IMG/VR virus record: IMGVR_UViG_3300046007_008909
Span: 1 to 21,261 of that record
Reading direction: 5' to 3' (one strand)
DNA length: 21,261 bases
DNA from: a virus
The position numbers and the translations under genes were made by a program. The notes under the pieces were generated by a model that worked only from the letters and a program-made list of their open reading frames with translations, was not told the DNA's origin and searched no databases. This document shows positions 1 to 20,142 of this stretch, piece by piece; the first letter of the stretch is position 1; each line of letters opens with the position of its first letter.

Positions 1-322
1 AATTTTGTACACTATCCTGTGATAAATATAAAGATCCATATCCAACACTTGTATTGAATTGGCTGTATAAACCCTTTCCTTGTGATAAACGTCCTATTGC
101 AACTTGACCATAATTTGATGGACGTGGTGGCATGCCAACATCATTAATGAAGTCATATAATCCACTAGTGGATGAAATATTTAATGTAAACACTCCCATA
201 TTTGGAACAACACTTTGTTCTAAAGGAGTTGATGTTTCTAATGATCTTGCACCAACACCAACAACTCCCCATGAGTTTGTATAGTTTCCTACACTATATG
301 CACCAACGGCAACATTTTCTGC
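1..322 (-). other. YadA-head-like beta-roll repeats, block 2 (residue ~1673 to window edge)
   Basis: The repeats seen are NVAVGAYSVG (from 1675), GVVGVGARSLE (about 1690), GQVAIGRLSQG (about 1745) and TSVGYGSLYLSQ (about 1766). This is the same beta-roll pattern as block 1, and it continues past the left edge, so its full length is unknown. Confidence 0.6.
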
Positions 323-3300
323 GATATATTCAATCGGCGGGGTTGGTGCAGCTGATATTCCAAGCGGATTTAATACTTTTTTAGGTTGAGTGTCAGTCAA
401 CCCCATTTCAACAGCGGATGACAATAATATATCACTATTACTACCGTTTGCGGTATTAGCTGCTAAATACCAAGTGTTTCCACTATTATCAGATCTAACA
501 TTTCCATATGCACTTGCCAGTATTAATATGCTAGGTGAATATGTTTGTATTGTTGTATAATCAAACTCTGAAAAGTCTGATCCGCCATCATAACTACCTG
601 TATACCAAGTACTACCCGTTGTAGAGCTAATGAGTATAGTTCCTGAATTACCAACTGTTAATACATTTCCATTTTTAAGAACTTTAACATCATTTAATGA
701 TTCGGTTGTTAAACTTTGTGTTACCAAAGACCAGCTAACGCCAGTATTATTTGTTTTATAAATTGATCCACTTTCGCCAACTGCAATCCAACTATCAGAA
801 TTGATGGAATCAATTGCATTTATTATATGAGACCCCGTATAACTGGAAGTTACCCAATTTAAATTACTGCCACTTTGTATATACCATATTTTTGATCCAA
901 CCAAAAAGCCAGTATTAATTGATGTTACACTTAAATTTTTAATACTATTTCCACCAATACCGTTTATACTACATGTAACCCACGATTTAGCAGAAGTTGT
1001 TGAACGTAATACTTTAGAATTTGAAGAATCAATACCATAAACAATATTTGAATTTAATGGGATTATTTTATCTATTGTATATACAGATGATGAATATATA
1101 GTTGTAAACGAACTATTTTTATTTGATGAGCGTAAAATGTATGTATTTAATGATAAGCTACTTGAGATATTAAAATCATTGTATAATATAAATGTTGTAT
1201 CACTGTTTGGTGATACAATTGAAGCCGGTTTTAGATATACGTTTGATCCAGTTAAAAAGCTGTTAACGAATGAAGCGGACGTAAAACTTGAACCAGATTC
1301 AATTACTGTATTCCATGAAAACCCACCATCAACAGACTTAAAAAGTTGACCAATTGGACTAACACCAATTATGTTTGACTGATATTTTTGTCTAATTGAT
1401 ACTGGTAGAATTGTTTTATTAGTTTGTAATGCACCATATCCAACTGCAACATTTTCTTTTGCATTTATAACAGTACCCATTGCACTGTGACCAACTGCAG
1501 TATCTTTATTACTGTATGTTGAATTTCCAAGTGTTCCAACACCAACAGCTGCCCCTTGTGTTAAATTATCTCTTAGTAGTGTTCTTTGCTGTGATGTTTT
1601 TTGACCAAAAATACCAACACCCAACCCAACATTTTCAGATGAGTTTGGAACATAAACTGGGGTTTCTCCTGGTTTTGTACAGCGATATGCGAAATTTTCT
1701 AAATTATAGAATGATGAACTTATAAATCTTGTTTGGAAACAATCTTTTGTATCCTCGCCGCCACCACCATTTGTATTATCTTCTTCATCAGATAAATTTA
1801 ATGGTTCTGCAAAGGCAGTTGTATATAATATAGAATCGCGTTGTGCGCTATTTGCTGGATTTATAGAATTTTCTAAATCTATAGATGTGTGATTTGAATC
1901 AATTTCTCTCCAGCTAGATCCCCCATTTGTTGATAATAAAACAAAATGATCATTATAAGAACCTAAATTTCTAGATCCAACTGCAACACCGATTGTGTTA
2001 CCCGATGAAAATTTAATATCTGCTATTGCGGTTGACGCATCGGTTGAATTTGGAACTGTGTATACTAAAGACGCATTTGCACCGCCATTGGTAGTACGAT
2101 AAATTGTATTGTTAAATGAAAATACACCGGTTTGTCCAGTTTTATCTAAGAAGTGAACAGTATCTATATTTGCACCACCAGTATTACTATTAATTGGTGT
2201 TGTTACTCTAGACCAAGTTGCTCCTGCATCTGTTGTTGTAAATAATCCAGGATTGCTTGATGAGTTTTTGCCTGATATAAATCCGCGTGTTGTTGAAACA
2301 AATTGTATTTGACCACTCTTATCATCCATGAAAGATTGTTTTGTATTACCACCACGATACCCAGTAATAGATACGAATGACCAAGATGTTCCGCCATTTG
2401 TAGTTCTATATATACCTTCAACAGAAGAATTTCCGTATAATGTAACAATACCGATATTAGCATCAATAAAGAATATATCTAACGGCTTATTTTGTTTTCC
2501 TACTGGAAGATTCAGAGATTCATTCCAAGTAGTTCCACCATCTGTTGTTTTAAATATCGTTGAATTTGAGTTGTAATTAGGGCCACCAGAGGAATTTATT
2601 GGATATGCCGTTATAAATCCAGTATTAGCAGAAGTAAAAAATACAGATGTTATATTAAAATTTTGAGGAGTTGCAAGTGTAGACCAATTTGAACCACCGT
2701 CAGATGTATATGATAATTTTCTTGTTGATGGTGTAAGTGCGGTTGGCTTTACAGTTCCAACTGCGAATCCGGTAGAAGAATTTAAAAAGCGCATTTTTAA
2801 TATTCCATCTGTTCCGTTTTGATATTTGTTATTATCAACAAAAAATTCAGAATCAGATTTTAATCCAAATGAAGTACCATTATTTGAAGATCCATATATA
2901 TAAAATTTGTCTATATCTTTATATATAATATATGACCCTTCGCTAAGCGCTGTTATAAGATAATCGCCTGCTGCTGGTTCTTGATTTAATATCGTAGGCT
3001 TCTTATCAACCCAAGTTAATCCTTTATCATCAGAACTCATCAATATCGGTTCGGAACCTAAATCTGTGCCAAGAGCTGCGTAAAGCCCCGTAGTACCACC
3101 TCCAATCCAATATCTATAGCTTCCTTCACCTGCAATAGCTGCTAACACTTGTGGATCGGTTGGCCATGGACCTATTATAGAAGACTCTTGTAGATTAGAT
3201 AATATTATTCCTTGGGTTCCTGCTGTTATCAAAAATCCATCAGCATCCCCATGGGGTTTTGTTTCATCTATTGTTATTGCTCTATTTCCATATTGAAATG

Positions 3301-5338
3301 GTATGGTTGTGCTTGATATTTCTACTACAGTGAATGATGGTGTTGATTGTGTAAAGTCTATTGTAAATTCTATTGAATATCCATTTTCGTGTAAAACATA
3401 AAGTGTGTCTGTTGAATAAACATGAATATCTATTGGTTTATAGAAGCATTGGCGTTTTTGGGTCCATGTTGAACCGCCATCATCTGAGACGTAGATGTAA
3501 TAATCATCTGGGCTTACGGTATCTTGTGTTAATACTACTATGTAATTATCATTTACTGGCCAAACTTTTAATATATCATGATTTGCAACTACTGATAGGA
3601 TGGTCCATGATCCACCATACGTTTTATACTTTAATAAATTGTTTGTACCGCATGCAAATACTTTAGTATCAGTACATTTTACATCTAAATATCTTTTGGA
3701 TGAGCTGTCATCTTGTGTAAATGTAAATGCCTGGGCGGATGTTCCATACTTTAAATTAGCACGTTCGCCCTTAAATATATAACCACCGTTTGTAACGCCA
3801 CCATCGGCAGTAACATATATTTCATACGCAGATCGTGCGGATATGGCATTAAAATCTAAATTATAATTATTATAACTCATGTTATAAAAATTATCATAAT
3901 TAAACCCGTCAGTTTGGGGTTCAAGTTCGGATATAGTAGCAGTTTTGTTATCTTTTTGAAGAAGTATAAAAGAATATGCTATTCCGGTATCTTCTACAAC
4001 ATCAAGCGCTTTTGGTTGTTGTGTTGCTGGGATATTTATGAACTTATCCTGTTTTAAATCTGTCCAATTATATTTTTGATTTGGAGAAGTTCCACTTAAA
4101 TCGTAAGTTTGACCAACTGACCAAAAAACATTATTTGAAGATATAGCTACATGTATGTTTGAAGGTGACGCAGATGGTGATAATTTTAATGTTTTTATGT
4201 CTATTATTGGTGGTTGTGGGTTTGGTATCGGAGTAGAAATGAAACTCCAATTGGCTCCAGCATCAGAAGATCTTAAAATTTTTGTTGTATCATCTGTTAC
4301 AGCAAGAACCAAATCTTGTTCAGGTATAATTATATCATTTACGCCACCGTTTAATCTAGTAACTGGCAATGCTACCGCTGTCCAATTGTCACCATCATCT
4401 GTTGTTTTTAATACTTTTCCATATGGTAAAGAAGTTGCTGCGTATGCAGTTGTTGCATTATATTTATCAAAAATTACTCGATTTATTACACCATATTTAA
4501 CACCACCCCCAGTAACATCAGTTATTGTTCCACCATCATCTTTATATAATTTACCAGATTCACTTCCATATATAAAAACTCCTGTAGTTGGATTATACGC
4601 AATAGCAGTTAGTGCGTCATTTGGATTTCCAGCCAATGCACCAGTTAGTGTTATTTCCGTAGTACTTATCACAACTGGGGTTGGTGTTTTATTGGGATCA
4701 ACTACTATTTTTATTAATGCCGGTCTATATACGCTACCAAGAGCAGATTCTACACGAAACGTCTTGCCTCTCCCACCCAGTAAATGTTGAAATTTTATCA
4801 TGCTTCGAAAAATAGCTGCATTACCTCCTGGTACACCCTCATATTTTGCACCAACTACATAACATTCTGATTTGTTTATCCAAATCATATCAAAACCAAC
4901 AAAATCACCGAATCCTTTAAGAAGAGAAAAATTTAATCCACCATCTACTGAAACGCTTATTCGGCATGCATTATCGTCCGGTGCCGATGAATTTATTACA
5001 GCCGATCCACTTATTTTTGCAAACGGATTTAATTCTGTTACTAAAGTATATGCAGTTTTATAATCAACGTGCTGTACTCGATAACCAAGTACTCTTCCTC
5101 CCGGTACTTTAGCTTGAGTAAACCCATTATCACCATTTTGGTTTGAAGAAATAACATAATCAAATCCACCCTGTCCGATAATAGATCGATTTCCCGGAAG
5201 ACTGTCATTGTATGTTGCATCTGTTCCGGCTACAAAAACATTTGGGTCTGCTTGTGGTTGCCTAAGAATTTGCTTAAAAAACGAACCGGTAGTTGCTTTT
5301 ATTAATCCCTGAACATCGGTGGTTCCAAATATCTTCAT
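1..5338 (-). CDS. Giant beta-propeller / YadA-head-like tail adhesin, 3' end beyond window
   Basis: One minus-strand frame is open from an ATG at 5338 to the left edge, at least 1,779 codons, with no stop; the start reads MKIFGTTDVQGLIK. A weak AGAG lies upstream. Asp-box motifs (S/T-x-D/N-x-G-x-T/S-W) end in Trp at about residues 319, 364, 625, 776, 885, 938, 986, 1042, 1143, 1342, 1453, 1495, 1536, 1578 and 1623, with degenerate copies at 137, 1089 and 1411. This is the signature of BNR/sortilin/Ycf48-type propellers. Two blocks of AVGxxAL-type repeats (about 1235-1304 and from 1675) resemble the YadA-head left-handed beta-roll found in trimeric adhesins and phage fibres. No enzyme residues, signal peptide or membrane segment were seen. 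Position after the tail tube gene, its own upstream terminator and promoter-like motif suggest a separately transcribed tail-tip or fibre adhesin. The frame is seen directly; the receptor-binding role is inferred. Confidence 0.85.
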   Translation of the reverse strand, partial: MKIFGTTDVQGLIKATTGSFFKQILRQPQADPNVFVAGTDATYNDSLPGNRSIIGQGGFDYVISSNQNGDNGFTQAKVPGGRVLGYRVQHVDYKTAYTLVTELNPFAKISGSAVINSSAPDDNACRISVSVDGGLNFSLLKGFGDFVGFDMIWINKSECYVVGAKYEGVPGGNAAIFRSMIKFQHLLGGRGKTFRVESALGSVYRPALIKIVVDPNKTPTPVVISTTEITLTGALAGNPNDALTAIAYNPTTGVFIYGSESGKLYKDDGGTITDVTGGGVKYGVINRVIFDKYNATTAYAATSLPYGKVLKTTDDGDNWTAVALPVTRLNGGVNDIIIPEQDLVLAVTDDTTKILRSSDAGANWSFISTPIPNPQPPIIDIKTLKLSPSASPSNIHVAISSNNVFWSVGQTYDLSGTSPNQKYNWTDLKQDKFINIPATQQPKALDVVEDTGIAYSFILLQKDNKTATISELEPQTDGFNYDNFYNMSYNNYNLDFNAISARSAYEIYVTADGGVTNGGYIFKGERANLKYGTSAQAFTFTQDDSSSKRYLDVKCTDTKVFACGTNNLLKYKTYGGSWTILSVVANHDILKVWPVNDNYIVVLTQDTVSPDDYYIYVSDDGGSTWTQKRQCFYKPIDIHVYSTDTLYVLHENGYSIEFTIDFTQSTPSFTVVEISSTTIPFQYGNRAITIDETKPHGDADGFLITAGTQGIILSNLQESSIIGPWPTDPQVLAAIAGEGSYRYWIGGGTTGLYAALGTDLGSEPILMSSDDKGLTWVDKKPTILNQEPAAGDYLITALSEGSYIIYKDIDKFYIYGSSNNGTSFGLKSDSEFFVDNNKYQNGTDGILKMRFLNSSTGFAVGTVKPTALTPSTRKLSYTSDGGSNWSTLATPQNFNITSVFFTSANTGFITAYPINSSGGPNYNSNSTIFKTTDGGTTWNESLNLPVGKQNKPLDIFFIDANIGIVTLYGNSSVEGIYRTTNGGTSWSFVSITGYRGGNTKQSFMDDKSGQIQFVSTTRGFISGKNSSSNPGLFTTTDAGATWSRVTTPINSNTGGANIDTVHFLDKTGQTGVFSFNNTIYRTTNGGANASLVYTVPNSTDASTAIADIKFSSGNTIGVAVGSRNLGSYNDHFVLLSTNGGSSWREIDSNHTSIDLENSINPANSAQRDSILYTTAFAEPLNLSDEEDNTNGGGGEDTKDCFQTRFISSSFYNLENFAYRCTKPGETPVYVPNSSENVGLGVGIFGQKTSQQRTLLRDNLTQGAAVGVGTLGNSTYSNKDTAVGHSAMGTVINAKENVAVGYGALQTNKTILPVSIRQKYQSNIIGVSPIGQLFKSVDGGFSWNTVIESGSSFTSASFVNSFLTGSNVYLKPASIVSPNSDTTFILYNDFNISSSLSLNTYILRSSNKNSSFTTIYSSSVYTIDKIIPLNSNIVYGIDSSNSKVLRSTTSAKSWVTCSINGIGGNSIKNLSVTSINTGFLVGSKIWYIQSGSNLNWVTSSYTGSHIINAIDSINSDSWIAVGESGSIYKTNNTGVSWSLVTQSLTTESLNDVKVLKNGNVLTVGNSGTILISSTTGSTWYTGSYDGGSDFSEFDYTTIQTYSPSILILASAYGNVRSDNSGNTWYLAANTANGSNSDILLSSAVEMGLTDTQPKKVLNPLGISAAPTPPIEYIAENVAVGAYSVGNYTNSWGVVGVGARSLETSTPLEQSVVPNMGVFTLNISSTSGLYDFINDVGMPPRPSNYGQVAIGRLSQGKGLYSQFNTSVGYGSLYLSQDSVQN
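449..1351 (-). other. Propeller region C, Asp-box repeats (residues ~1330-1630)
   Basis: Asp boxes occur at W1342 (SVDGGFSW), F1411 (degenerate, SSNKNSSF), W1453 (STTSAKSW), W1495, W1536 (TNNTGVSW), W1578 (TTGSTW) and W1623 (DNSGNTW). From 1411 onward the period is 41-45 residues, shorter than in region B, and many copies have lost the central Asp or Gly. With one unseen blade between 1342 and 1411 the spacing would fit about seven blades. Confidence 0.65.
1421..1642 (-). other. YadA-head-like beta-roll repeats, block 1 (residues ~1233-1306)
   Basis: The block contains four short repeats: ENVGLGVGIFG (from 1235), GAAVGVGTLG (about 1262), DTAVGHSAMG (about 1278) and NVAVGYGAL (1296-1304). They fit the N-x-A-V-G-x-x-A/S-L pattern of the left-handed beta-roll of YadA-type trimeric adhesins, also common in phage fibres. 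The block separates propeller regions B and C. Confidence 0.65.
1889..2731 (-). other. Propeller region B, regular Asp-box repeats (residues ~870-1150)
   Basis: Six Asp boxes are spaced 47-56 residues apart: W885 (TSDGGSNW), W938 (TTDGGTTW), W986 (TTNGGTSW), W1042 (TTDAGATW), a copy at 1089 where the Trp is Ala (TTNGGANA), and W1143 (STNGGSSW). The regular period is that expected for blades of one six- or seven-bladed propeller of the Ycf48/sortilin/BNR type. Confidence 0.75.
2969..4951 (-). other. Propeller region A of the giant protein (residues ~130-790)
   Basis: This region holds four clear Asp boxes, at W319 (TTDDGDNW), W364 (SSDAGANW), W625 (SDDGGSTW) and W776 (SSDDKGLTW), plus an early variant ending in Phe (SVDGGLNF, F137). 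Spacing is irregular, so some blades have probably lost the signature or other domains are inserted. The blade count cannot be fixed by eye. Confidence 0.6.
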
Positions 5339-11375: not shown

Positions 11376-11412
11376 TTGTTAGTTCTCTAAATTAGTTATA
11401 AAAATATATAAA

Positions 11413-11422
11413 TATAAATATC
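11413..11422 (-). promoter_or_regulatory. Putative late promoter motif upstream of the neck operon
   Basis: The coding strand reads GATATTTATA, ending 38 nt before the ATG at 11375. It lies in the 97-nt gap between phoH and the neck genes, which holds no other gene. The opposite strand reads TATAAATA, identical to the T4 late promoter core, but pointing away from any gene. Confidence 0.4.
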
Positions 11423-12322: not shown

Positions 12323-13960
12323 TTAGATATCACCCAATGAATCGATTTGGATGAGACCGTAGAATTCAGGACGAACGATCTTCTTAGCATAACGTGTCAT
12401 CACGCCCTTACGAGGTGTGAACGTATTCGGATCGTATACAAGCGGTGTCATAATCAATGGAATATATGGAGCGTATACAGCACCTGTTTCGAGGAACTGA
12501 GCACCACGATAACCCATGAGAATTTGATTTTCTAACATGTATGGGTTCTTATAGATTTGATAACGTCCTTGGAACGTACCAACCTTTTGAACACCCATAG
12601 CAAATTGCATCTGATTACCATCTGTATCAACGCTGAAACCAGGCATTGATTCAAGGATCGTAGCAACTTGTGGAGAAACAACAGCAAAGTTTGCACCACC
12701 GCGCATGGTCTTTTGATGAATAAGGTTTGACACCTTCTGCATCTTAGTACCAAGTGTTTGGAACCAGGTCTGTTGTGTATATGCAGATGCTTGTGATTGC
12801 GCATTGCCATACTCTGTGAATCCACCTGTTAATGCATCATACTGACGTCCAACACGTGCTGACCATCTTTCGATTGTCTGAGCATTCTTGATAAGCATGT
12901 CAAGAATTTCAAGATCAATTTCTTGTGAGATATACTCAGAAAGCATTGATGTTAATTCTGCTTCAGCATCGATTGAGTGGTATGCATTTAAGTCTTGTGC
13001 AAATTCTGGTGTCCAGATTGCTTTCAACTTACGTGTTTTCGCAACAATTGTTTCGCTACGAAGTTCAAGATTGATTTCTGGGATATCGAGCGTTCCTGCT
13101 CTATCTTCAAAATCACCACGGCTAATAGCTGTTGGTTGCTTAGCATACTCAACCTTTACACCAGTAATGCTTGTAGCTGAACCAGATACAACGAATGTAA
13201 CAGTTGTATTTGAATTATTTGTTGATGTATACTGTGGGAAGTAATCGCTGAAGCCTGAACCACTGATAGTAAATGCACGAACGCCTTCCATATCAGCACC
13301 TTCTGTCAATGAAGCGGTTGACACTGTTATCTTATAAACATTACCAGCTGCAATTGAAGCTGAGTATTGATTAAAGAATTCTGTATCGAAATCGTAATCA
13401 GATGCTGAAAGTGATGATGTTGTGAATTGTGTTGCTGAAAGAGCAGTGTTTAATGTAAGACCAGACGCAGTTGCTTCATTGAATGAATAGCCATAACGTC
13501 CAGCACCATAAAGACCGCCTTCTGGATCTGCATTAAATACATCGCGGCCTGTAACACCGAATACAGAGTCAGCTTGTGATTCTTTACCAGCACCAGTTGA
13601 AAATCCAGGTTGTGCTGTGCCATACTTGAAATCAAGGAAGAACACAAGACCTGAAGGAAGGTTCATAGGCTGAACAGAAACGAAATCTTTTGCTGCAATT
13701 TGAGCAAAGATACGTCTTACAAGCGGGAGAGCAACGCCTGCCCACTCTTCTGAACCAGCTGCTGTTCCAGTTCTTGATGATTCTTCAATAAGTTGCTTTG
13801 CTTGGTTTTCGAGAAGTGTAGCAATGCCACTCTTTTCATAGTCATTTCTTACACCTTCCAAAAGACCAGTTTTTTCCCATTTAGTCACAACACCCTTGTT
13901 CTCTTCGATAAGTCTCTTATATGGACTTGAGGTATTGCTTAAAATTTCCTTTATACTCAT
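12323..13960 (-). CDS. 23: Major capsid protein, T4 gp23 family
   Basis: This is a 545-aa HK97-fold capsid protein (T4 gp23 is 521 aa). Matches to the family include SVQPMNLPSGLVFFLDFKYG split over 95-114, the block SETIVAKTRKLKAIWTPEFA followed by QDLNAYHSIDAEAEL, and the C-terminal GAVYAPYIPLIMTPLVYDP with KGVMTRYAKKIVRPEFYGLI. An N-terminal helical delta-type region of about 60 residues is expected to be removed by the gp21 protease; LxE sites that fit the T4 protease preference lie at LLE51 and LIE59. Residues of about 165-280 are Ser/Thr/Gly-rich and probably form an outer insertion domain. GGAG (13967-13970) lies 6 nt before the ATG. It is the last gene of the head operon, before a strong terminator. 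Confidence 0.97.
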   Translation of the reverse strand: MSIKEILSNTSSPYKRLIEENKGVVTKWEKTGLLEGVRNDYEKSGIATLLENQAKQLIEESSRTGTAAGSEEWAGVALPLVRRIFAQIAAKDFVSVQPMNLPSGLVFFLDFKYGTAQPGFSTGAGKESQADSVFGVTGRDVFNADPEGGLYGAGRYGYSFNEATASGLTLNTALSATQFTTSSLSASDYDFDTEFFNQYSASIAAGNVYKITVSTASLTEGADMEGVRAFTISGSGFSDYFPQYTSTNNSNTTVTFVVSGSATSITGVKVEYAKQPTAISRGDFEDRAGTLDIPEINLELRSETIVAKTRKLKAIWTPEFAQDLNAYHSIDAEAELTSMLSEYISQEIDLEILDMLIKNAQTIERWSARVGRQYDALTGGFTEYGNAQSQASAYTQQTWFQTLGTKMQKVSNLIHQKTMRGGANFAVVSPQVATILESMPGFSVDTDGNQMQFAMGVQKVGTFQGRYQIYKNPYMLENQILMGYRGAQFLETGAVYAPYIPLIMTPLVYDPNTFTPRKGVMTRYAKKIVRPEFYGLIQIDSLGDI

Positions 13961-13980: not shown

Positions 13981-15030
13981 TTATTTTAAACCTGCTAATT
14001 TCTTAAATCTTTCAGCCATCGCATCAGATTCTGTAAGTATTTCTTGTGTTTTCTCTGATGGTTTTGTTGATGGCATTGCATTGCTTACGAATGATTCCTT
14101 GATTGTAAGTGGTTTAGACTTATTACCATGGAAAGCTTCTGCTAAAGTTGTAAATACAAGCTTAACTTCACGAACTGACTTAGCTCTATCGAAGTTTTCA
14201 ATTACTTTAGCCTTTTGTGCTTCATTCAAATTATACTTCTTAAAGAGTTTGTTTGAGAAAAGAAGTTTAGCATTTAATAAATTAACTTCATTAATTTGTG
14301 TTCTTAAGAAATTAATTACATCATATGCTTCTTTGAGATCAGCTTCAAGTGATTCCATTTTTGCACCATAGCCTTCACCCTTTTCTTCTTCATGGTCTTC
14401 TTCATCTTCATCTTCTTCTTCTGTCAATTCACGTAAAGCATTGATTATGTCTTCGATATTCAATTCTTTCTTATCGTGTGACATTTCATCTGTTTTGTGT
14501 TGACCATTCTCCATATCTTCGCCTTCTTCTGACATCATTTTAGGTGTTTCATGTTTTACATGATCACCGTGTCCTGGATCATCAGTTGCAGCAGATGATG
14601 CATCATCGGCAGGCTCTTTGTTATCCCCTCTTCCGATTTCAGAAGATGCAAGTTCTTCTTCCAATTCACGAATAATGGCCTCAAGATCAAGATCTTCTTC
14701 CATTTCTTCTTCCTCTTCATGAAGCTTTTCATCATCTTTCTTATCTTCGTGGTCTTCGCCTTCCTTCTTCATCTTCTCTTCTTCTTCCTCTTCTTCTTTA
14801 AGATCTTTAACCTTTACCATTTCATCTGTACCATATTCTTCGCCTTCTGCTTGTACAGACTCTTCCTTCTTATCATCCTCCCCTTCCATCTCTTCTGACA
14901 ATTTAGCAGAAATCATAGATTGGATATGTGGAGCAAGCGCTTCTTCTATTGCTATCTTAGCATTTGCATATGCAGTTTCTTTAACTGCCTTAGCATCGGC
15001 TATAGCCTCCCTCAATAAATCTTTAGACAT
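13981..15030 (-). CDS. 22: Prohead scaffold / core protein, T4 gp22 family
   Basis: This 349-aa protein is longer than T4 gp22 (269 aa), the internal scaffold that shapes the prohead and is later degraded by gp21. The C-terminal part, FDRAKSVREVKLVFTTLAEA at about 280-299, is the recognisable gp22-type segment. The N-terminus is an Ala-rich helix (1-45). The middle is extremely acidic, with poly-Glu runs at about 77-117 and 203-216. A short helical motif appears twice: LDLEAIIRELEEEL (113-126) and LNIEDIINALRELTEEE (190-206). GAGGA (15037-15041) lies 6 nt before the ATG. It lies directly upstream of gene 23, as in T4. Family identity is supported by the C-terminus and context; the repeated motif is an observation. 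Confidence 0.9.
   Translation of the reverse strand: MSKDLLREAIADAKAVKETAYANAKIAIEEALAPHIQSMISAKLSEEMEGEDDKKEESVQAEGEEYGTDEMVKVKDLKEEEEEEEKMKKEGEDHEDKKDDEKLHEEEEEMEEDLDLEAIIRELEEELASSEIGRGDNKEPADDASSAATDDPGHGDHVKHETPKMMSEEGEDMENGQHKTDEMSHDKKELNIEDIINALRELTEEEDEDEEDHEEEKGEGYGAKMESLEADLKEAYDVINFLRTQINEVNLLNAKLLFSNKLFKKYNLNEAQKAKVIENFDRAKSVREVKLVFTTLAEAFHGNKSKPLTIKESFVSNAMPSTKPSEKTQEILTESDAMAERFKKLAGLK
14680..14802 (-). repeat. Low-complexity GAA/GAG tract in the scaffold gene
   Basis: A run of GAA/GAG/AAG triplets (CTT/CTC on the plus strand) encodes the poly-Glu/Lys region, residues 77-117 of the scaffold. A second shorter tract lies at about 14380-14422. Triplet repeats of this kind could vary in length by slippage without shifting frame. 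Confidence 0.7.
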
Positions 15031-15149: not shown

Positions 15150-15380
15150 TTATAAATTATTCAAAATAATATTATTTTTTTTCTGTTTTGCAATCGCAGC
15201 ACGTTTTGCACGTTTTCTTTTTTCTGCGGGTTTTATGTATTCTTGTTTCTCTCGATATGTTTCTAAAATTTGAAACTCTTTCATTTTTCTTTTAAAAATT
15301 CGTAATGCATAATCTATGTTATTGTTTGACACTTCAACATATGTTCCTAGCTTTCTAACCGATTCACTTATCTTTGTCAT
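15150..15380 (-). CDS. rpsU: Phage-encoded ribosomal protein bS21
   Basis: This 76-aa, very basic protein matches bacterial small-subunit protein bS21 over residues 15-69. It has a strand-like YVEVSNNNID, then the first helix ALRIFKRKMKEFQIL (25-39), then a second helix YREKQEYIKPAEKRKRAKRA in the family layout ('FKR...L...R...Y.KP..KRKRAK.AA..K'). It carries about 14 extra N-terminal residues. bS21 sits near the anti-Shine-Dalgarno end of 16S rRNA and acts in translation initiation; phage copies are known and are thought to replace the host protein on ribosomes. Its GAGG ribosome binding site (15385-15388) overlaps the stop of the preceding gene, with a 4-nt spacer to the ATG, so it belongs to the late head operon. 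The family call is strong; the effect on translation is inferred. Confidence 0.92.
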   Translation of the reverse strand: MTKISESVRKLGTYVEVSNNNIDYALRIFKRKMKEFQILETYREKQEYIKPAEKRKRAKRAAIAKQKKNNIILNNL

Positions 15381-15387
15381 ATAACCT

Positions 15388-15933
15388 CTATATTAATTTA
15401 TTAGCAACATGTACCATTTTCTTAATTGGTAACTTTAAAAATTTATTTCGTAATTCAGGAGTTGGCAGTGCATCGTAAATACCTAATAAAAGATTTGCAG
15501 TTGCAACATCAACCATCTCTTTATCAACCTTACCAGAAGATTTAGTGTTAACAATTGCTTGTATCTGGCTTAATGTTGATTTTGAATTATCTTCAATTGT
15601 TTCATTCTTATGGACTTGATACGCCTTTAACGCACCTAATGCATTTTTATATGAATCATATTTTTGTGGCCAAAGCTTACCAGTTTTTGCACTTTTTATT
15701 CTAAAATCATCTCCAACTTTTACAATAAATTTTTCAAAGATTTGCATGATATCTTCTTTTTTAAGCTTTTTCGGCAAACCTTTAGTTGGGGTAGCTGCAT
15801 ACTTTTCAAGTTCTTTTTCTGACATATTTTTAGCTACTGCTTTAACTGTAGCAGACGCATCTTTCATTTTTCCGCGTTTGTACATCAATGCCATTGCCAT
15901 TAACTGTTGTTGGTTTTCACTCTTAGATGGCAT
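15388..15933 (-). CDS. DUF3008-like N-terminal domain protein, unknown function
   Basis: This encodes a 181-aa basic protein. Residues 1-60 (MPSKSENQQQLMAMAL, YKRGK, then MSEKELEKYAATPTKGLPKK) resemble the small DUF3008 family, which has the same MPxKSxxQQ...KRG...MSExELEELAxTxxKGLP order; I make this call from memory of the family. A middle segment at about 68-108 (FIVKVGDDFRIKSAKTGKLW, then KNALGALKAYQVHK) looks like a separate small domain, and the rest is helical. GAGGT (15940-15944) overlaps the stop of the protease gene and lies 6 nt before the ATG. It lies between protease and bS21 in the head operon, so an internal head or assembly role is plausible but unproven. Confidence 0.85.
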   Translation of the reverse strand: MPSKSENQQQLMAMALMYKRGKMKDASATVKAVAKNMSEKELEKYAATPTKGLPKKLKKEDIMQIFEKFIVKVGDDFRIKSAKTGKLWPQKYDSYKNALGALKAYQVHKNETIEDNSKSTLSQIQAIVNTKSSGKVDKEMVDVATANLLLGIYDALPTPELRNKFLKLPIKKMVHVANKLI

Positions 15934-15937
15934 GTAT

Positions 15938-16564
15938 TTACCTCAAATTACATTCACAAGATAATTCGCAAATTAATTCTTGCAAAACTCTATTAACATT
16001 TTCATACTTGTTATTAGAATGTGCTACGTTTTCTTTAATTACAGATTCGTTTGTTGGAGAAACAAATGCACCATGTGTACTTGGATTAGAAACAAAGTCC
16101 CATGCAATTAATTCAAAATCATCTTGCACTTCTAATGATTCATTTACTTCTTTAACACTACCAAGTCCACGTGAAGAAACTCCAACTTTAATACCAGATC
16201 TAAACAATTCTTTTAAAATGTTACCACTTGGCGTTGGAAGAACTTCAATTTTTCCAATTAGCTCATTTCCCTTCCAGTACATGTCAATGATATTATGGCT
16301 GACATTTTTTAAGTTTACTATGGCTGAATCTGGGTGGTCCAGCTCTCCCATCGCACGTCTTTCTACAACATAGGTATCATAATATTTTTTTGCTTCTCGT
16401 ACTAAAATATCTTTTGGATAAACTCGTCCGTTTTGATTCTTTACATCAGAGCGTTGTAGTGGACCACTAACAATCAATGTTCCATTATGTTGTGCCATTG
16501 ATTCATTAATAATTTGCGGTGTGAAATACATAACACCAACTGGATCTACTATTAATTTTTTCAT
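15938..16564 (-). CDS. 21: Prohead core protease, T4 gp21 family
   Basis: This 208-aa protein (T4 gp21 is 212 aa) is the serine protease that matures the prohead by cutting scaffold, capsid and core proteins. It shows the family blocks GPLQRSDVKNQNGRVYP (34-50), RRAMGELDHPDS with the likely catalytic His77, MYWKGNELIGKIEVLPTPSG (95-114), and GVSSRGLGSV with the likely nucleophile Ser130 or Ser131. The start codon overlaps the stop of the gene before it (ATGA), so it is translationally coupled. Likely substrates are the scaffold and major capsid proteins encoded just downstream. The fold is complete and no key residue appears missing. Confidence 0.95.
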   Translation of the reverse strand: MKKLIVDPVGVMYFTPQIINESMAQHNGTLIVSGPLQRSDVKNQNGRVYPKDILVREAKKYYDTYVVERRAMGELDHPDSAIVNLKNVSHNIIDMYWKGNELIGKIEVLPTPSGNILKELFRSGIKVGVSSRGLGSVKEVNESLEVQDDFELIAWDFVSNPSTHGAFVSPTNESVIKENVAHSNNKYENVNRVLQELICELSCECNLR

Positions 16565-17085: not shown

Positions 17086-17399
17086 TAACGTACTGCCTGA
17101 TTTCTAATTAATACATAAACATCAGCTGCACCTGTTACATAAGATATTGATAATTCATGTATGTATCCCTTTGCAAGCTTGCTAAGATCAATCGATCCGC
17201 CATTTGATAGGTATGCAGTACCAGCAGCCGAACCATATGTTATTACAGCACCCGCGCCATAATCAGATCCAGTAAAGTATGCACTACCAGACGGTGTAAT
17301 CACTCGATGATATTTTCCAGGATGACCAATTCTAACAAAATCGTTTGGTGATCCGCCAGTTTGTCTTTGGTGGTATTCTTGTGGTTGAATCGCTGCCAT
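17085..17399 (-). CDS. Small Gly/Tyr-rich beta protein, unknown
   Basis: This encodes a 104-aa protein with no recognised family. It is rich in Gly, Ser, Ala and Tyr, with alternating hydrophobic stretches such as SGSAYFTGSDYGAGAVITYG and a C-terminal strand pattern GYIHELSISYVTGAADVYVLI. This suggests a compact beta-sandwich with no signal peptide or membrane segment. Its ATG overlaps the preceding stop by one base (TAATG), and its own stop overlaps the next start in the same way. It could be a minor capsid or decoration protein, judged only by composition and by location in the head operon. Confidence 0.8.
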   Translation of the reverse strand: MAAIQPQEYHQRQTGGSPNDFVRIGHPGKYHRVITPSGSAYFTGSDYGAGAVITYGSAAGTAYLSNGGSIDLSKLAKGYIHELSISYVTGAADVYVLIRNQAVR

Positions 17400-18256
17400 T
17401 ATAGGATTCTCCTAATTTCATTTTTTAATTCTTGTAATTTTAATAACTTGACTACATGCTCATCATTAACAACTTTAATATCTTTTAATGATTCTGTTAA
17501 TTTTAGTAATTCTTGTAATTTTATCCTTAAAATTTTATCATTTACTTTTGGAATTGATTCCGATATAAATGATTCAATTTTTACAACTTCGTCTATAATA
17601 TATGATTTTAAATTACTTGAGTTTGAGATGTTTAATATAAATTGACGTAATGTATGTTTTTGGTTTTCTCCCAAAAATCCATATTTTTCATTAAATTTAT
17701 TAACAAGAATTTTATATGATAAAAGCCGGACATCTTCCGGTTCTTTTCCATATGATTCTTCTAAAATGTCAAATTCGTTTGATTCATTTGATTTTGATTT
17801 TTCTTTGATTATATGATCAATCAGGGTACTTTTAGATCTAACTATATCTAATGGGTTATCGTCTTCGCTGTATTCAAATACCTTATATATTGATGCATAC
17901 GCCTTGTAATTTGGTATATTTGTTTTAAAGAAATTGTGTAAATCAAAAGAGTTTTTGATTTCTTTAATCAAATTAAATTTTTCAGTTTGAAGTGCTACTT
18001 TGTTTAATCGCTTTCTTGTATTAATAATAGTTTCGAGCAAAATTGATGATTTTTGCTCGGATGAAAACTTTTCATTCAAAAGCGTATTATATAGCATGTA
18101 CTCTTTATAAAGCTCCTTATCTTTTGCAAAATAGCGTTTTAATATAGACGAAGCTTCAGAATTTTTACCTTCTATTACATCGGCTGTTATCTGTCTAACC
18201 AATAAATCAAACAGAATTCCAGTATTTTTATATTTTGAATGTTTAAGTTCTTTCAT
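17399..18256 (-). CDS. Helical protein first in the head operon, unknown
   Basis: This encodes a 285-aa, mostly helical, charged protein. The N-terminus KHSKYKNTGILFDLLVRQIT (5-24) is a distinctive block that I believe recurs in environmental T4-like phages next to the portal gene, but no function is known to me. Long Lys/Glu helices fill the rest, ending with LLKLQELKNEIRRIL. It begins the operon running to the major capsid gene, with a promoter-like motif 30 nt upstream and a weak ribosome binding site. A scaffold/core or portal-associated role is suggested only by position. Confidence 0.85.
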   Translation of the reverse strand: MKELKHSKYKNTGILFDLLVRQITADVIEGKNSEASSILKRYFAKDKELYKEYMLYNTLLNEKFSSEQKSSILLETIINTRKRLNKVALQTEKFNLIKEIKNSFDLHNFFKTNIPNYKAYASIYKVFEYSEDDNPLDIVRSKSTLIDHIIKEKSKSNESNEFDILEESYGKEPEDVRLLSYKILVNKFNEKYGFLGENQKHTLRQFILNISNSSNLKSYIIDEVVKIESFISESIPKVNDKILRIKLQELLKLTESLKDIKVVNDEHVVKLLKLQELKNEIRRIL

Positions 18257-18285: not shown

Positions 18286-18295
18286 TATAAATATG
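18286..18295 (-). promoter_or_regulatory. Putative late promoter motif upstream of the head operon
   Basis: The coding strand reads CATATTTATA, ending 30 nt before the ATG at 18256. It lies in the 53-nt gap after the portal stop, beside an AATT tetranucleotide run (18299-18315). It is the weakest match of the six, differing at the first base. Confidence 0.35.
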
Positions 18296-18309: not shown

Positions 18310-20142
18310 TTAATTGGAATTTATTAGATTTTTTTCATCTAAAAACGATGAATTATCCATGTCATCTATTTCGTGTAAATTTTCAATTGATTCACCTAAT
18401 AAAGATTTAGCAATGACATCATTTGATTTTATTTTTATAGATGCTAAATACGGTATATATGCATTCGCCATGCTACTTTCCACACTTAATGGACTATTAT
18501 TTTTGTATGAATGCTTTATGCTCTTATCCATCTTATAATCATTATTACTATTCTTTCCAACAGGATCTCTACCTAGATAATGTGAATCTGTTTCATAATT
18601 TGATTTATACTCTTTAGGTCTTCCTGGTTTTTCGTTTGTAGGAGGTATTTCCATACTTGCTATATCGTGCGGCGTTCCATATGACTGGCTAGTTACAACC
18701 GGATCATTTCCTTCGGTTTCAATTTGAGATGATCTAAACTTAAATTTAGAGTCTTCAAGAATATTATTAATTTCTTCATTTGCTTCTTCTTCACTCATGT
18801 TGAAAATATTCTTGTAAATAAACCATTTTGAAAGTGCTTTATTTTCAGTTGCAGCCGTAAACAATTCAACTTTTTGTTTTAAAAGATTTATTTTTTCTTG
18901 CTCATAAATTATAGATGGTGATGTTAATTCAAGTTTAAAATCTATTAAATCACTTTCTTTAAATCCTTGTGCATATAAGTGTACAATTGCAATCTTTGTT
19001 AATTCGCTTTCTATAATTCTCTGGACTCGCTCAATTGTTCTTGCAAATCTAATATCTTCTGCCGCTAATGTTGCCTTGCCCTCAACTGTCTCATCATAAC
19101 CCAAAAATGCTTTTGGTATTTTTAGAGAAGCAAACAATTTACTACGCAAATACTCCAAGTCTTCTATAGCTTGGTATTGCAATCCGTTTAATGTAGAAAT
19201 TTCCGTTCCATTGTTCTGTCCACGTACCGGCAGATAAAAATCTTCTAAAATATTTTGCATGTTATATCGAAGATTATATTGACCAGTTTTCTCATCTACA
19301 AACGGTGTTTTTTTCATTTGATTCATAACCTGCTGCATGTATTGGTCTACTTCAGCAGGTGGTATGTTACCAATATCGAGTTTAAATATTCTTTTTTCCG
19401 GTGCTCGCATAACTCTATGGATCATCATAGCGTCTTCCATAAGAGTTATTTGTTTAAAAAGTTTACGAGCTCCCTCTAAAATAGAGCGCCCATATGGTAA
19501 AAAGTTTGTATCTGACAAAAGTCTGAAGTGTGCTACTTCATAATTTTCAAACTTTGCCTTTCCTAAAGCACCCTCATAAATAAATTTAGTATCAAACAGA
19601 TTGTTTGGATCTGCCCCGTCTTCTCTTGTAACTTCATACGCAGATAACGGAAATATACTAACAATACCAAGCTCTTCTCTAATATCTAAACGCAAATAAA
19701 AATCCCCATACTTTACTAAATTACGAGTCCATGGCCATATGTTATATTGTATATTTAAAATATCATAAAATAAATTTGTTAAAATTTTTCTGATGTTATC
19801 ATTTTCACTTTTAATTAATAAAACCTCTCCGTTTTCCGCTTTAGTTGTAGCTTCATCGGCATATATATCCAAGGCAGATGAAATTATAGCATCTTCATCC
19901 ATTGCTTCGTAATCCGTATATAAATCCAACCTAGCTGCGCTAAATCCATTATATTGATGGTATGGATTTACGTTTGAACCACGAGTACCATGCAATCTCC
20001 CGTATCTATCGATTACGCGAGTTTGATATGGATTTCCCTGTGCTTGGTAATGTGCGGTATCACTAACTTTAAGCTTACCATCAACATTTCTTAGAACAAT
20101 CGTAGTGCTAAATAATTTTTTTAATCTATCAAAAATTGCCAT
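18310..20142 (-). CDS. 20: Portal protein, T4 gp20 family
   Basis: This 610-aa protein (T4 gp20 is 524 aa) forms the dodecameric ring at the capsid vertex through which DNA is packaged by the terminase. Family features are an N-terminal wing with ARLDLYTDYEAMDEDAIISS followed by ALDIYADEAT, the core FPLSAYEVTRED, and a stem/clip region with YEVAHFRLLSDTNFLPYGRS, then LMEDAMMIHRVMRAPEKRIF and KIPKAFLGYDETVEGKATLA. The C-terminus from about residue 475 is a low-complexity, Ser/Asn/Lys-rich tail (EKPGRPKEYKSNYETDSHYL) and accounts for the excess length. The ribosome binding site AAGGTG (20147-20152) overlaps the terminase stop codon, so the two genes are transcribed and translated together. Confidence 0.96.
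   Translation of the reverse strand: MAIFDRLKKLFSTTIVLRNVDGKLKVSDTAHYQAQGNPYQTRVIDRYGRLHGTRGSNVNPYHQYNGFSAARLDLYTDYEAMDEDAIISSALDIYADEATTKAENGEVLLIKSENDNIRKILTNLFYDILNIQYNIWPWTRNLVKYGDFYLRLDIREELGIVSIFPLSAYEVTREDGADPNNLFDTKFIYEGALGKAKFENYEVAHFRLLSDTNFLPYGRSILEGARKLFKQITLMEDAMMIHRVMRAPEKRIFKLDIGNIPPAEVDQYMQQVMNQMKKTPFVDEKTGQYNLRYNMQNILEDFYLPVRGQNNGTEISTLNGLQYQAIEDLEYLRSKLFASLKIPKAFLGYDETVEGKATLAAEDIRFARTIERVQRIIESELTKIAIVHLYAQGFKESDLIDFKLELTSPSIIYEQEKINLLKQKVELFTAATENKALSKWFIYKNIFNMSEEEANEEINNILEDSKFKFRSSQIETEGNDPVVTSQSYGTPHDIASMEIPPTNEKPGRPKEYKSNYETDSHYLGRDPVGKNSNNDYKMDKSIKHSYKNNSPLSVESSMANAYIPYLASIKIKSNDVIAKSLLGESIENLHEIDDMDNSSFLDEKNLINSN

Follow-up and report, generated by a model that had tools for sequence, protein, structure and literature searches.

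bS21 is the commonest ribosomal protein encoded by phages (PMC9976891). A capsid-linked phage bS21 with late expression has already been published (PMC9723584), and the accessible part of Al-Shayeb et al. 2020 (PMC7162821) describes huge-phage rpS21 with N-terminal extensions together with the idea of preferential initiation, with no tie made there to the placement of Shine–Dalgarno (SD) sequences or to a capsid operon. The role of phage-encoded bS21 has been open since 2019. A bS21 gene was studied here in the window, that is, the whole 21,261-nt stretch of virus DNA analysed (IMG/VR record IMGVR_UViG_3300046007_008909). The pattern of SDs among its relatives offers a specific and testable answer: phage bS21 may alter the host ribosome's choice of mRNAs.

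A similar layout was described by Chen et al. 2022 (PMC9723584) in Bacteroidetes phages, in which bS21 likewise lies close to TerL, portal, protease and major capsid protein (MCP); it was expressed with the late genes in metatranscriptomes and was proposed to replace host bS21 late in infection. Their gene, however, is on the opposite strand and not part of one operon, whereas the window gene and those of 64 out of 64 relatives are co-directional with the capsid genes, and their proteins keep an aromatic residue at the Tyr54 position, where the window protein has Ala. IMG/VR relatives with the Chen layout have an unextended bS21 of 63–65 aa and no SDs, whereas the window bS21 is extended. Pelagibacter phage HTVC008M (Mizuno et al. 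2019, PMC6375957) also provides a T4-like phage bS21, but that protein is 67 aa long, the host is SD-using and SD use is genome-wide. The same gene order as in the window is found in Microcystis phage Mel-JY01 (PP395634), where the gene is annotated RpsU and the MCP is 68.6% identical to the window's, although bS21 has diverged (35% identical); no description of this feature of Mel-JY01 was found in the literature search.

The cellular bS21 of F. johnsoniae (PMC9976891) belongs to the same family and occupies the same ribosomal site. Together with bS18 and bS6 it hides the anti-SD, and its Y54A substitution, C-terminal deletion or depletion leads to more translation of strong-SD reporters, which explains how an altered bS21 can leave the anti-SD free (PMC9976891). 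Its own gene has a strong SD, unlike the phage bS21 genes of group B (see below), which have none.

The bS21 gene of the window and its capsid operon

The features of the locus are the following.

15150..15380, minus strand: bS21 (rpsU-like) coding sequence, 76 aa (PF01165, E 4.5e-14; phrog_21469, ribosomal protein S21; purifying selection)
15339..15380, minus strand: codons of the N-terminal extension of bS21, residues 1–14 (alignment; coil in the model)
15385..15389, minus strand: Shine–Dalgarno AGAGG of bS21 (sequence; SD score 5)
15388..15933, minus strand: g181, a 181-aa protein with a DUF3008 domain, directly upstream of bS21 (PF11450, E 4.8e-07; synteny)
15938..16564, minus strand: prohead core protease (PF03420, E 4e-31)
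13981..15030, minus strand: acidic scaffold-like protein, 349 aa (position and composition; synteny with MCP in relatives)
12323..13960, minus strand: major capsid protein gp23, MCP (PF07068, E 1e-77)
18310..20142, minus strand: portal gp20 (PF07230, E 1.5e-72)
17399..18256, minus strand: g285, first gene of the putative late transcript (gene order and motif position)

The bS21 open reading frame starts with ATG and ends with TAA. The profile PF01165 (Ribosomal_S21) scored 52.3 bits against it (curated cut-off 27), covering profile positions 2–54 of 55. In the AlphaFold model (mean pLDDT 84.7) a coil of about 21 residues is followed by helices at residues 22–35, 38–45 and 51–75, and all ten PDB fold matches, weak as they were (E 0.09 or weaker), were bS21 or mitochondrial ribosomal chains. 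Among the nearest relatives of the window dN was 0.14–0.22 and dS 0.9–2.3, indicating purifying selection. The match along nearly the whole domain and the predicted helical bS21-type fold bear out the complete bS21 homologue claimed in the earlier note; the gene is an authentic phage-encoded bS21 that has been handed down with the capsid block in a large clade of T4-like phages. No second bS21 was found in the 21 kb contig, and an Rfam search of the window gave no match. The N-terminal extension, put at 14 residues in the earlier note, has that length when counted to VEV; by the conserved AL pair the protein is 10 residues longer than the bS21 of E. coli or F. johnsoniae. In a genome scan for the host with this protein, the two relatives that turned up, one in a Gottesmanbacteria MAG and one in a Proteobacteria MAG, were weak, bS21 being too short and divergent to be informative.

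As had been claimed, bS21 has the same direction as the capsid genes: all lie on the minus strand, in the order terminase, portal, g285, g104, g174, protease, g181, bS21, scaffold-like protein, gp23 and PhoH, and past PhoH there are more structural genes, including sheath and a gp19-like tube. gp20, the gp21-type protease and gp23 follow one another in the order of a T4-like capsid operon (PF07230, PF03420, PF07068). The bS21 SD shares two bases with the TAG stop (15388–15390) of g181, so the ribosome binding site does overlap the previous stop. The reported place between prohead protease and scaffold is right as to position, with the qualification that g181 intervenes on the protease side; such a DUF3008-like gene usually lies just upstream of bS21 in the branch to which the window belongs. 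The scaffold-like protein had no family match in Pfam or PHROG. In the 119 bases between its gene and bS21 no terminator was flagged, and the fold there was no better than that of shuffled sequences. At one end of the contig, on the minus strand, an open frame of at least 1778 aa (1–5338) without a Pfam match runs off the end and probably encodes, by its position, a large tail protein.

Distribution of bS21 and of Shine–Dalgarno sequences among relatives

In 64 of the 80 IMG/VR loci with a related MCP, bS21 lay upstream of the scaffold gene, always on the MCP strand, an occurrence in this slot that is new here; of the other 16, nine had an intact interval without bS21 and seven were cut short. 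The placement, which the earlier note singled out as deserving comparison, is therefore the norm in this phage clade, and capsid linkage of a phage bS21 had already been published (PMC9723584). Flavobacterium phage immuto has no bS21. On quick MCP trees one well-supported clade (group A) contains the window and is surrounded by the other bS21 carriers (group B), a division of related, non-independent loci that was drawn after inspection of the data; rows without bS21 fall in 4–5 places. On these trees bS21 presence and late SDs change together only about four times, one of them forced by well-supported branches, and a tree-based paired test was dropped, the independent changes being too few.

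The SD score was the longest stretch of TAAGGAGGTGA in the interval 4–20 nt before each ORF's first ATG, with values of at least 4 taken as positive; for bS21 the start was the first ATG lying no more than 45 codons from the domain. Starts are thus first ATGs in metagenomic, mostly incomplete contigs, and gene classes were assigned from homology to annotated genes of immuto and Mel-JY01, not from expression.

In group B an SD preceded bS21 in 0/39 cases, the scaffold gene in 40/40, the MCP gene in 39/40 and the portal gene in 1/15, so that bS21 is not the only late gene devoid of one. Median duplex energies with the 16S tail were 0.0 kcal/mol for bS21, -7.7 for scaffold and -6.3 for MCP. For group B genes other than bS21 the observed SD frequency was 0.72–0.79 vs 0.18–0.23 expected after letter shuffling. 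For bS21 the shuffled expectation was itself 0.01; since its leaders hold almost no G, the zero count owes as much to composition as to motif.

SD use in most of the large group B genomes was high in blocks around the structural genes and low elsewhere. By class, SDs were present in 70/108 virion core genes vs 22/108 genes of replication or metabolism (p 4e-11). This gap survived within-genome permutation and was retained with the gene family as unit (p 3e-4 under one definition of the motif and 2e-5 under another). Taken singly, genomes G006, G007, G008 and G011 were significant and G004 and G005 were not; an NrdB homologue and GroEL with SDs were exceptions in G006 and G008. Three genomes were not used to find the rule, their capsid loci having nevertheless been inspected before it was tried on them: in G012, with an extended bS21, SDs marked 7/8 virion vs 2/21 other genes (p 1.7e-4); in G013, without bS21, 2/18 and 0/11; and in G014, with a host-like bS21, 0/11 and 1/9 (0.08 for the whole genome). 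Relatives without bS21 had SDs on 8/85 capsid-block genes and on 0.03–0.09 of genes genome-wide. T4 (0.68 overall) and HTVC008M (0.56) use SDs throughout, with no comparable split between virion and other genes. The combination in group B of an extended bS21 with no SD of its own, SD-bearing late virion genes and SD-less replication and metabolism genes is new here; no published work tying phage bS21 to SD placement was found in a literature search of sources other than preprints and most subscription journals.

Extension lengths were measured from the AL pair against E. coli or F. johnsoniae bS21. The N-terminal excess was 10–13 residues in group A, 13–38 in group B and 0 in host-like phage bS21; some rows were not anchored automatically, and two values of 35 (L026/L027) stem from a misplaced anchor. 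Phages retrieved with the bS21 core of F. johnsoniae had mostly the Chen-type layout, with bS21 of 63–65 aa on the opposite strand, and their MCP, scaffold, protease, portal and terminase genes had no SDs (L194–L205, with a host-like, unextended bS21). About half of the group B proteins have Arg at the Tyr54 position and most of the rest have Tyr or Phe; late SDs are present in both types. The known unlocking lesion, loss of Tyr54, is therefore not common to all of group B, and it was ruled out as the sole determinant of late SDs. The presence or slot of bS21 alone was likewise ruled out by L088, a 484 kb phage with an unextended bS21 in the same slot, whose MCP, scaffold and protease genes lack SDs. 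With host-like bS21 phages and L088 lacking SDs on their capsid genes and both Tyr54 types bearing them, late SDs track the extended form of bS21 rather than its presence, its slot or Tyr54, a correlation over few independent lineages.

Group A, to which the window belongs, does not follow this pattern. Its bS21 genes have an SD in 19/20 cases, that of the window included, and by SD motif count virion and other genes did not differ significantly (32/54 vs 14/29); a split appears in Mel-JY01 when duplex energy is used (p 1.5e-4). In G009, the longer relative closest to the window, SDs also precede several replication genes. The arrangement proposed for a late-SD switch with extended bS21 was found in group B and not in the window, which has an SD before bS21 and does not contain the early genes of this phage. 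Since group A has SDs before bS21 and, in the parts sequenced, also on genes other than the late ones, such a switch cannot be claimed for the window's phage. Its SD use argues for a host tolerating SDs, and the hosts of this phage may simply use them.

Proposed role of the extended bS21 and alternative explanations

The reading preferred here, with a probability of about 0.5, is that in the sister lineages host bS21 is exchanged for the extended phage form, so that a ribosome with an occluded anti-SD can read the SD-bearing late mRNAs. The phage protein would take the position of host bS21 in the 30S, on the platform at which this protein, together with bS18 and bS6, governs access to the anti-SD. 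The group B bS21 mRNA, having no SD, would be readable by the unmodified, SD-blind host ribosome; ribosomes with phage bS21 would then expose the anti-SD, and the SD-bearing virion mRNAs (scaffold, capsid, sheath, tube and baseplate) would be preferred to host and early phage mRNAs, which lack SDs. Late timing, host type, incorporation into the ribosome and unlocking of the anti-SD are steps that we infer. In the window's branch the most that the exchange of bS21 would do is to increase initiation on SD-bearing mRNAs at large. The remodelling of host ribosomes suggested in the earlier note thus finds support in the SD pattern of the sister lineages, while in the window's branch, with SDs on bS21 and on non-virion genes, its consequence is not visible.

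That a pelagiphage bS21 enters E. coli ribosomes (PMC6375957) speaks for this reading, but the resulting ribosomes were almost inactive in translation in vitro, which counts against a switch. No match to the IF3, S18 or S1 families was found in 11 relatives searched for other phage translation factors. The wider proposal, given slightly less than an even chance, is a translation programme of two stages in phages whose hosts are SD-blind: the SD-less early genes and bS21 would be translated before the extended bS21 takes the place of the host protein and opens the anti-SD, and ribosomes would then be diverted to SD-marked virion mRNAs; in the window's branch the programme would be ancestral or constitutive. 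If true, these phages would prefer their own messages by altering one small ribosomal protein, a virus-encoded change of the initiation rule of the ribosome and a natural orthogonal translation system for Bacteroidota.

The features of the window's branch, with SDs on most capsid-block genes including bS21 and on replication genes of G009, would also be expected if phage SD use only mirrored the translation system of the host and bS21 were a passenger or mild helper, and HTVC008M, with bS21 and SDs throughout on an SD-using host, agrees with this. Such a host effect cannot account for SD-rich virion genes and SD-poor replication genes inside one genome, and it leaves unexplained why members of this clade that have no bS21 are SD-less; it is unlikely. 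A simple substitute, in which phage bS21 makes up for lost or limiting host bS21 and the choice of mRNA is unchanged, is in accordance with the conserved core and fold, the purifying selection and the late context, but it is improbable, as it predicts neither the extension nor the link between extended bS21 and late SDs.

The SDs and bS21 travel with the capsid block, as they would if the virion block and bS21 had come from a phage of SD-using hosts and the SDs were relics. Relics would decay, yet late SDs are kept among capsid proteins with as little as about 57% identity, and also on far-off late genes such as those of baseplate and tail, and homologous blocks without bS21 have no late SDs; a modular origin is accordingly very improbable. 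The least credible of the alternatives is that bS21 is packaged in the virion, injected and active from the start of infection, a possibility raised in PMC9723584: only the place of bS21 among the head genes speaks for it, and the SD-less replication genes of group B argue against SD-competent ribosomes early in infection.

Promoter motifs, timing and hosts

Two further sites in the window concern transcription.

18286..18294, minus strand: ATATTTATA late-promoter-like motif, 29 nt upstream of g285 (motif enrichment and position)
11407..11421, minus strand: two overlapping ATATTTATA motifs upstream of g377 (motif position)

Between the genes of large relatives, ATATTTATA occurred in sense orientation 10–18 times vs 0.5–2.0 expected (5–22 fold enriched). 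It precedes portal, g285, g377, sheath, tube and hub, and directly precedes bS21 in the sister genomes G007, G008 and G011; some non-virion genes are also preceded by it. It is probably a late promoter of this phage clade, including the L099–L168 genomes, in which the distinct T4 late promoter TATAAATA was not enriched. For the window we infer that the motif at 18286–18294 starts a transcript comprising g285, g104, g174, protease, g181 and bS21. The late co-expression with capsid genes put forward in the earlier note is therefore probable, as suggested by the common direction, the coupling of the bS21 start to the end of g181 and the motif before g285.

Promoters of the Bacteroidota type (TTG-N16-21-TAnnTTTG) were enriched in Mel-JY01 (23 observed vs 1.7 expected), G001 (15 vs 1.3), G008 (16 vs 1.5), G007 (6 vs 1.6) and the bS21-less G010 (10 vs 0.8), and were not enriched in G006, G005, G011, G004, G009, immuto or the window, the last offering little DNA. 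As immuto infects Flavobacterium and shows no such promoters, their absence is not evidence against a Bacteroidota host. The low SD use of non-virion genes fits, and does not prove, an SD-blind host in group B. Whether genes led by these promoters are poorer in SDs was examined in Mel-JY01 and G001, and no difference was found. The 23 promoters of Mel-JY01 (PP395634, L095–L098), which also carries a gene annotated 'major paralogous domain', make its cyanobacterial host assignment worth checking. In G008 (L115–L124) several non-virion genes have a Bacteroidota -7 box ending 2–6 nt before the ATG, which would make their early mRNAs leaderless.

In Arg-type group B phages a stable hairpin, with a T-run after it, lies between the late-promoter motif and the bS21 start (L064:6473-6570, L043:6432-6529 and L028:6453-6550; z -3.0 to -4.3). 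In L043 the sequence is changed and the stem is kept; the element could be a terminator or a regulatory leader.
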